A stretch of DNA of 64,000 nucleotides from Bacillota bacterium (lineage in GTDB: Bacteria; Bacillota; Clostridia; Tissierellales; Peptoniphilaceae): contig JAUNLQ010000001.1 of the NCBI GenBank assembly GCA_030532225.1, positions 124,001-188,000 of the forward strand. The letters are read 5' to 3'. Positions 7,876-55,561 of this stretch are shown here, piece after piece. The position numbers were made by a program, and so were the translations under genes. Numbering within the stretch: the first letter of the stretch is position 1; each line of letters opens with the position of its first letter. Under the pieces are notes generated by a model that was not told the origin of the DNA, ran no database searches, and saw only the letters and a program-made list of their open reading frames with translations.

Positions 7876-7924
7876 AATTTCCTCCAAAAAAAAAGTTGTT
7901 TTGGACAACAAAACAACAAAAAAA

Positions 7925-8041
7925 GTTATATGTCGTCCTTTTCAAATACGGAAGGCCAGCAGATTTCTCAACTGACCCGAAACTCCAAAGAGTTTGGCAA
8001 AGACTTCATAGTTCCCCTTAGAAGATCTTGCTCGGATTCAT
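7925..8041 (-). promoter_or_regulatory. Moco-type (molybdenum/tungsten cofactor) riboswitch
   Basis: Between the promoter and modA, the minus-strand leader holds the element GGGTCAGTTGA and, near its 3' end, GCCTTCCGTATTTGAAAAGG then ACGACAT. These closely resemble the conserved GGGUCA and GCCUCCCGUAUCUGGAAAGG blocks that I recall from the Moco RNA ahead of E. coli moaA. A multi-stem fold is visible: ATCCGA pairs with TCGGGT (with wobble), enclosing AAACTC-TTTG-GAGTTT. The distance between the two conserved blocks is shorter than in E. coli, which may indicate a Tuco-like variant lacking a stem. In the family, ligand binding lowers expression of molybdate transport and cofactor genes. Confidence 0.78.
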
Positions 8042-8053
8042 ATTTACTAGTAG

Positions 8054-8082: not shown

Positions 8083-8117
8083 ATTGTCATAGGAAAATCA
8101 GGCTATCAAATTTTATT

Positions 8118-8180
8118 TATTAGTCTTTTAGGCAAGATGGACTTCTTCTTTATTTGTAAATCGCTGTCGCCGTTTGCTGA
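8118..8180. repeat. Dispersed repeat, right-end copy
   Basis: TTAGTCTTTTAGGCAAGATGG followed by a TTTGTAAATCGC-type stretch is repeated, with drift, at 8515-8570 and again at about 47930-47990. This copy has only the right-hand part of the longer element described next. No protein can be read through it. Confidence 0.6.
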
Positions 8181-8228
8181 TTTAATTATAATTAAATAAT
8201 ATATTTTTATTTTAAGCGACTTCGGTTT

Positions 8229-8590
8229 GCTTCGCCATTACTGTACTTTATTGTGACTCTATACTTTTATTCGTTAATAAACTAAACTTCAACGTCAGGA
8301 GGGGAACTAAGGAGACCTAGGCAGTGAAATTCTGCCAATCGAGCTTCCTTGCAGTCGCTCTCTTGGGAATTTCTTGCATGAGACCTGTTACGAAATCGAA
8401 GATTTCAACTAGGGCTTCAAACCCCCGTCACGTTCCCCTCCTTGACAATCCACCCCTTCCTTCACCCACTTGACCCCTTGCATGGAGCTGCGAGAGACCG
8501 AAATAGTTTCTGTTAATTAGTCTTTTTTAGGTAAGATGGTATTTTTCTTCGTAAGTAACGGCTTGCGCCGTTTAGCTATCGCCGTTAAAG
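8229..8590. repeat. Dispersed repeat element, long copy with inverted-repeat core
   Basis: This copy aligns over its left 78 bases with 47739-47816 (GCTTCGCC...GACTC...TTCGTTAA...CTTCAACGTCA then GAGGGGAAC), and again from the right arm GTTCCCCTC onward (CCACCCCTTCCTTCACCCACTT, quoted by parts, and CATGGAGCTG). The arms GAGGGGAAC (8299-8307) and GTTCCCCTC (8432-8440) are exact inverted repeats, extended to about 14 paired positions with one bulge. About 124 bases lie between them here, but only 23 at the other locus. Frames contain stops in all readings, so it looks like a non-coding, possibly mobile, structured repeat. This element and the partial copy above fill most of the 8.1-8.6 kb gap. 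Confidence 0.72.
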
Positions 8591-8688: not shown

Positions 8689-8883
8689 ATGATGAATAAC
8701 TCCAGGGAGATAATAAAAAGGCTTAAGGCAGAAGGTTGGGAATTAGTAAAAGTACAGGGTTCTCACCATCATTTTAAACATCCTAATAAGGGTGGAAAGG
8801 TGACGGTGCCTCACCCTAGAAAAGACTTAAAGACTAAGACGCTAAAAAGCATTTACAAACAAGCGGGCTGGATTTTTAACTAG
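8689..8883 (+). CDS. hicA: HicA-family mRNA interferase toxin
   Basis: HicA toxins are small double-stranded-RNA-binding-fold RNases that cleave mRNA and arrest growth until neutralised by HicB. The 64 residues match the family: REIIKRLKAEGWELVKVQGSHHHF contains the helix and the catalytic-histidine segment GSHHHFKHP (about 25-33), then VTVPHPRKDLKTKTLKSIYKQAGW. It is preceded by AGGAGG 11 bases before the ATG. A second ATG follows immediately and could be used instead. It is on the opposite strand from its neighbours and stands as a two-gene cassette with hicB. Confidence 0.95.
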   Translation: MMNNSREIIKRLKAEGWELVKVQGSHHHFKHPNKGGKVTVPHPRKDLKTKTLKSIYKQAGWIFN

Positions 8884-8925: not shown

Positions 8926-9318
8926 ATGGAAAATATAATTTATCCAGCTATTATTGGAAGAGATGAGGATGGCAACTATATTAGATTTGATGACGAAAAT
9001 TTAATTCCTGTTTATGGAGATACAGTTGAAGAAGCTGTAATAGAAGCACAGGAAGTTCTAAGTTTAGAAATCATTGATTATGAAGAGAATGGAAAAAAGT
9101 TTATTATTCCAGAGGCTGAAACAGCTCTTTTGCAAGAAGGAGAAAGTATTATTTATCTTAATTTATGGATGCCTTACCATAGATCTAAGGTGGAAACTAT
9201 TTATAAAAAGAAAACTTTAACTATCCCAACCTGGTTAGATTTATTGGCTCAACAGAAAAAAATTAATTTTTCCAATGTTTTAGTTAAGGGATTAAAAGAG
9301 GAGTTAGGTATTCAATAG
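8926..9318 (+). CDS. hicB: HicB-family antitoxin with ribbon-helix-helix-like C-terminus
   Basis: HicB binds and inhibits HicA and represses the operon. The N-terminal 70 residues show the HicB partial-RNase-H-fold pattern (YPAIIGRDEDGNYIRFDD, then GDTVEEAVIEAQEVL). The C-terminal 35 residues (TLTIPTWLDLLAQQKKINF followed by SNVLVKGLKEELG) look like a ribbon-helix-helix DNA-binding unit. It starts after AAGGAGG, 42 bases behind hicA. At 130 residues it is of normal length. The palindrome inside the promoter is the likely binding site. Confidence 0.93.
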   Translation: MENIIYPAIIGRDEDGNYIRFDDENLIPVYGDTVEEAVIEAQEVLSLEIIDYEENGKKFIIPEAETALLQEGESIIYLNLWMPYHRSKVETIYKKKTLTIPTWLDLLAQQKKINFSNVLVKGLKEELGIQ

Positions 9319-47496: not shown

Positions 47497-47620
47497 GATT
47501 TTGAAATTTTTTATTTTTTCATATTAATAATATCTACAAAGTTTAATTAGACTTTACCTTTCTAGTTTTTACATTAATTGTTTATTGTCCCTTGACCCAT
47601 ATCTTCACTTTGGTTTTCAG

Positions 47621-47720
47621 CTTCGCCGATTTCTTTACTCAATTGCGACTCGAAATCTTTTTCGTTAACTAGTTGAACTTCAACATTATGAGGGGAAGAA
47701 AGGAGACCTAGGTAACCTCT
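47621..47720. repeat. Dispersed repeat, left-part copy (first of a tandem pair)
   Basis: CTTCGCCGATTTCTT...GCGACTCGAAATCTTTTTCG...GTTGAACTTCAAC is repeated 118 bases later, with few changes. The end GGAGACCTAGG also matches the 8.3 kb copy. Read on the minus strand it allows a 60-residue open frame, but the same frame is stopped in the other copies, so it is not called as a gene. Confidence 0.72.
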
Positions 47721-47738
47721 ATATGCTTTAATTTTTTG

Positions 47739-47995
47739 CTTCGCCGATTTCTTCACTCAATTGCGACTCGAAATCTTTTTCGTTAACTAGTTGAACTTCA
47801 ACGTCATGAGGGGAACTAAGGGGAGCCGAACCCCCTCACGTTCCCCTCCCGACACCCACCCCTTCCTTCACCCACTTCGGCCATTGCATGGAGCTGTGAG
47901 AAGAAAGGCTTGGTTTCGGCAAATAACTTTACTTCGATAAGATTATCTTTTTCCTTGTCTGTAAATTGCTTCGCAATTTTCGCTGTCGCCTTTAG
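47739..47995. repeat. Dispersed repeat, compact full copy
   Basis: Same element as 8229-8590. The arms GAGGGGAAC (47808-47816) and GTTCCCCTC (47840-47848) enclose 23 bases containing a second nested GGGG/CCCC hairpin. The right part holds the CCACCCCTTCC and CATGGAGCTG blocks and ends near a TTGCTTCGCAA hairpin. The central 100 bases of the long copy are absent. Confidence 0.72.
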
Positions 47996-55366: not shown

Positions 55367-55383
55367 AAGATTAGTAATATTTA

Positions 55384-55499
55384 ATCTTCTTTCATCCAGA
55401 CTTTACTGTCGGTTTTGGAATTTCACCAAATCAGCTTCCCTATTAGGAAGGCCGCGGACTTTTACCGCCGGTGAGGAATTTCACCTCGCCCTGAAGATA
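55384..55499 (-). promoter_or_regulatory. FMN riboswitch (RFN element)
   Basis: Classic RFN blocks on the minus strand in order: ATCTTCAGGGC, GGTGAAATTCC, ACCGGCGGT, GTCCGCGG, GGTGAAATTCCAAAACCGAC and AGTCTGGATGAAAGAAGAT. The ends ATCTTC/GAAGAT close P1. FMN binding should favour the downstream terminator and switch ribU off. Confidence 0.97.
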
Positions 55500-55561
55500 C
55501 TTTCATTGTACTACTATATTTTACTGCTGTCAAATTTATCTTTAGTTTTTTTTGTGCAGAA

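Follow-up and report, generated by a model that had tools for sequence, protein, structure and literature searches.

An inner element of about 100 nt, enclosed in the loop of a larger repeat, is a real structured mobile repeat that extends across the order Tissierellales. It is best read as being of the REP/PATE kind; no earlier description was found, and a literature search with its sequence motifs returned unrelated papers only. The element has a conserved, covarying fold, is dispersed within and between genera, occupies intergenic positions and is placed cleanly in hairpin loops for which matching empty copies exist. It is probably a non-autonomous REP/PATE-like mobile element that folds as a single strand and enters hairpin loops, with the outer repeat (modules U and D) as its target.

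Modules of the repeat in the window

The window, a stretch of 64,000 nucleotides, belongs to a Neofamilia-like Tissierellales genome of 1.43 Mb in 32 contigs (G000). The first-pass annotation had described a repeat of four copies at two distant loci, built around an inverted repeat with a loop of variable length, and had proposed a nucleotide search of the genome and its relatives, a covariance model and an inspection of the ends for target-site duplications. The inverted repeat, GAGGGGAAC/GTTCCCCTC, is indeed an exact 9-base match (8299-8307/8432-8440 with a loop of 124 bases, 47808-47816/47840-47848 with a loop of 23). The two loci align in blocks (about 8219-8321 and 47607-47712, 77%; 8226-8315 and 47735-47824, 79%; 8420-8495 and 47829-47901, 87%), and both partial copies were recovered: the left-only copy (47608-47706) is 90% identical to 47726-47824, and the right-end-only copy is listed in Table 1. 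The repeat is dispersed, as annotated, but four copies at two loci is an undercount. As a nucleotide query, the 372-bp long form has 54 matches in this genome, many of them at contig ends, and further matches in other genera, which excludes chance similarity; the caveat that the repeat might be confined to these two loci and lack relatives no longer applies.

Splitting into modules gives the layout U - hairpin - D1 - D2, with the hairpin closed by GAGGGGAAC/GTTCCCCTC (Table 1). At 47.8 kb this outer hairpin is empty (41 nt), and at 8.3 kb it is filled by a 101-bp segment. The annotated loop lengths are thus correct, but they do not reflect plain length variation, as the 124-base loop contains a separate element that had been overlooked: the same outer hairpin underlies both forms, and only the long one carries an insert, which is absent from most copies of the outer repeat. 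The contig stretches examined in this genome contain 7 filled and at least 11 empty outer hairpins. The best explanation of the outer U/D repeat at both loci is a REP/BIME-like mosaic of the genus's own, which serves as target of the inner element.

Minus-strand frames of the window copy resemble protein. However, a coding origin was rejected, since frames and stops vary among relatives. In the surroundings of the repeat, a HicA-type toxin gene (8689-8880, Pfam HicA_toxin, E 9.4e-24) starts about 100 bp past the long form; the following ORF (8926-9318) has no Pfam match and stands at the expected place of a HicB partner. The window also contains a molybdenum/tungsten riboswitch (7919-8049, minus strand), located before a solute-binding protein gene, and an FMN riboswitch (55380-55502, minus strand).

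Table 1. Coordinates of the inner element and of the outer repeat modules in the window.
Feature	Position	Strand	Basis
Inner mobile element (core), 101 bp, two adjacent hairpins	8320..8420	-	cmsearch with R1, 88.7 bits, 8321-8420; conserved across genera
Core hairpin A: TGAaGCCctaG..(variable hairpin)..CaGGTcTCA	8379..8419	-	RNAalifold pairs, covariation
Core hairpin B: GCN..stem with variable inner hairpin..N'GC	8320..8377	-	covariation
Outer hairpin arms GAGGGGAAC/GTTCCCCTC, core-filled long form	8299..8440		exact match 8299-8307, 8432-8440
Outer module U (left part), long form	8232..8308	+	nhmmer
Outer module D1 (right part), long form	8444..8495	+	nhmmer
Right-end-only copy	8116..8175	+	blastn, 74% to 8513-8573
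Outer module U, extra tandem copy	47621..47697	+	nhmmer
Outer module U, short form	47739..47817	+	nhmmer
Empty outer hairpin, core-less; perfect 9-bp arms close a second G-rich/C-rich stem	47808..47848		fold z-score -3.45
Outer module D1, short form	47843..47905	+	nhmmer
Outer module D2, short form	47906..47995	+	nhmmer

Fold and distribution of the inner element

The inserted segment was taken as the conserved unit because relatives outside the genus match mostly that segment. Its alignment was built by iterated profile searches over many genera; copies from named genomes were gathered by a search pattern in which GAAGCCCTAG and AGGTCTCATGC were fixed, so that invariance is overstated at those columns but at no others. 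The element is 83-129 nt long (median 100), and its minus strand forms two adjacent hairpins. Hairpin A consists of TGAaGCCctaGCC, a variable hairpin and GGCaGGTcTCA, while hairpin B opens with a GCN-stem, encloses another variable hairpin and closes with a stem-N'GC. Over 20 pairs, 145 double-change cells were counted versus 38 in shuffles, and 93% of cells are paired versus 31-43% when the partners are slid. In hairpin B, the base after TGC covaries with the base before the final GC (A-U 26, C-G 14, G-C 6), and the trinucleotide at the 5' end of the element covaries with its internal partner (TGA/TCA, CGA/TCG, TAA/TTA and once TTA/TAA). Single-sequence folding is mildly better than in shuffles and alike on both strands; therefore, the case for structure is based on covariation.

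With the covariance model R1, copies were recovered from 129 of 249 Tissierellales genomes, representing 47 of 92 genera. Among 391 sampled Clostridia, relatives included, there are 28 carriers, with sporadic occurrences in records named Emergencia, Eubacterium and Family XIII. Outside Clostridia, R1 gave only 3 weak matches in 398 genomes of the phylum, and plasmid and phage collections gave none. Copy number varies from 0 to 63 among relatives, with 63 in G027, about 26 each in G018 and G050 and 19 in G002, which belongs to the same genus as the window genome. The G027 copies agree at only about 89%, and recent movement is thus not required.

Most copies (116 of 129) lie outside ORFs, in gaps that are convergent in 27 cases and divergent in 6, and the element's strand is indifferent to flanking transcription (21 same, 24 opposite, p = 0.77). 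A DNA-level element therefore fits better than a cis-acting RNA: the context profile matches REP-like DNA repeats and counts against the latter. No consistent replication-strand bias was found (pooled 78/166); two genomes lean one way and in another all copies are co-oriented the opposite way. Neighboring genes include no recurring partner. Several repeat arrays flank S-layer-like surface protein genes at three loci of the window genome (L059, L061 and L064, contigs C3, C30 and C21), whose contigs end in repeat arrays that could be recombination points; S-layer-like and other clusters were considered as partner genes and looked like general context.

Insertion sites and comparison with known systems

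In Urinicoccus massiliensis (G059), the 23-nt palindrome GTAGGGGCGACCCTGTGTCGCCC occurs empty and, elsewhere, interrupted in its loop by the 100-nt element, and GTAGGGGCGACCC[..]TGTGTCGCCC without the element is identical to an empty hairpin of the same genome. The GATTT^TATATC hairpin, present in five empty copies, is matched by three more copies of the element. Insertion is exact but for one ambiguous T. In G027, the element occupies loops of the GTTATACCC..GGGTGAC and GTCAGATCC..AGGATGAC repeats; about 100 of these REP-like palindromes, at loci L211-L230, have other loops instead, and several small hairpins are interchangeable in the same loop. Short palindromes such as GTAGGGGCGAC..GTCGCCC and GTCAGATCCTTCG..CGCTCAGGATGAC provide the hairpins whose loops house the element, but they are separate repeats and numerous without it. 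Host palindromes are unrelated between genera. Over 46 genomes, flank pairing around the element gives a stem score of 11.87 versus 9.96 +/- 0.49 for swapped flanks. Some carriers, such as the Gallicola-like G013 (mean stem score 4.2), have no flanking palindrome, and the idea that the outer stem is intrinsic to the element was rejected because several carrier genomes lack it. In G052 (L078, 3180-3460), one copy starts inside a tRNA-Leu fragment, at its anticodon loop. A stretch of about 62 bp with promoter and 5' tRNA sequence is present there in duplicate, and the tRNA-Leu(CAG) gene downstream is intact.

Two hairpins (one at each end), no terminal inverted repeats and no target duplication are features that the element shares with IS200/IS605 ends and their non-autonomous derivatives (PATEs). 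No autonomous copy sharing its ends was found among 20 Y1 loci of about 3 kb, in contrast to what is expected of a PATE. TnpAREP and guide tetranucleotides have been described (PMC6006769), and the pairing of the short 5' motif (TGA/CGA/TAA) with an internal motif recalls target-guide pairing, except that it encloses hairpin A rather than lying 5' of its foot. With the REP/BIME/REPIN systems (TnpAREP/RAYT) it has in common the intergenic, multi-copy, hairpin-forming character, species-specific arms, clusters and mosaics. REPs are 20-40 bp long and carry a GTAG or CGTC tag (PMC3733652). In contrast to their single hairpin, the element has two unlike ones and a length outside the REP range; a conserved tag is missing (GT[AG]G occurs somewhere in the element in 27 of 46 genomes, CGTC in 3 of 46), its core sequence is common to an order, and Y1/RAYT-type genes are not consistently present. 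REP dimers occur within palindromes in the A. variabilis GTAG-15, T. roseum GTAG-23 and H. neapolitanus CGTC-1 families (PMC3733652), and nesting thus has precedent. The element works like the REP and the IS200/IS605-derived systems but is not an established member of either.

By analogy with IS200/IS605 and REP, a Y1 (HUH) enzyme is most plausibly the natural candidate mover. Over the 249 genomes, presence of Y1_Tnp and of the element are not associated (86/43/76/44, p = 0.60), and within the family the association is weak (p = 0.018). The near-complete single contig of G050 has 26 copies and no detectable Y1, and R1 found no copy in the 20 Y1-gene loci, a sample that is not exhaustive. No enzyme is linked to the element by these data. 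In G002 (L070, L074), the distance to a copy is about 260 bp for 2 of 13 Y1 genes, both of IS200 type, but the copy is on a different side of the gene in each case.

Alternative readings and significance

The preferred reading, a non-autonomous element that enters hairpin loops, would involve spread as folded single-stranded DNA. A hairpin-recognizing enzyme would act in trans, with the HUH/Y1 kind that serves IS200/IS605 ends and REP sequences as the most plausible one, and loops would be preferred as insertion sites because they are exposed as single strands. In the window, the target would be the outer hairpin, which is filled at 8.3 kb and empty at 47.8 kb. A more far-reaching version, conceivable but rather unlikely, is a new class of mobile element that targets hairpin structure itself: as a folded single strand of nucleic acid, it would insert precisely in loops of palindromes that are unrelated to each other (REPs, perhaps also the anticodon loop of a tRNA), with an internal guide covarying with the 5' boundary (TGA/TCA, CGA/TCG, TAA/TTA) and an enzyme not yet known.

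The first-pass annotation had listed a structured RNA family, a MITE-like element and a repeat mobilized by an absent transposase. The last fares best, in that a dispersed, structured, non-coding repeat moved by something absent is supported. Structure is also present as an RNA family would require, and a regulatory or trans-acting RNA, multi-copy by chance, would account for the strong covariation, for the very conserved unpaired motifs and for a near-invariant G.U pair on one strand (columns 6-60, 45 of 46). However, G.T pairing is also possible in single-stranded DNA, and no sign of strand-specific RNA use was seen: the orientations given above are evenly divided and copies are enriched between convergent genes. 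Rfam gave no match to the window copy at gathering scores, nor, with E relaxed to 5, to copies in six loci, and relatives differ in copy number over the whole range given above; the RNA reading is unlikely. The size, copy number and intergenic position would also suit a classical MITE deleted from an IS with a DDE transposase, and the bacterial MITEs RUP, NEMIS and ERIC resemble the element in size class and location. In contrast to their terminal inverted repeats of 15-30 bp, the longest inverted end match has a median of 4 nt and a maximum of 8. No target-site duplication accompanies the clean sites of U. massiliensis, and abutting direct repeats are at the null level, which makes such an origin very improbable.

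The mosaics could have arisen with no dedicated mobility, by replication slippage and template switching at palindromes that place hairpins within hairpins. Many different hairpins occupy the same G027 repeat loops, the outer modules are tandem mosaics and the tRNA-Leu copy is flanked by its 62-bp duplication, all in favor of this reading. Yet the same core, with its conserved unpaired motifs, recurs in 47 genera within unrelated palindromes, and slippage would hardly produce clean insertion at single loop positions, so that this explanation appears quite unlikely.

The repeats explain the assembly breaks of this genome at these sites. The covarying fold is precise enough for the design of binding and cleavage substrates, and hairpin-loop insertion becomes directly testable. 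The means by which short palindromic repeats spread in bacteria are not well established, and the families described so far are for the most part REPs that have a tag and are linked to RAYT enzymes. The inner element represents an order-wide family outside this scheme, and empty as well as filled loops occur naturally within a single genome.
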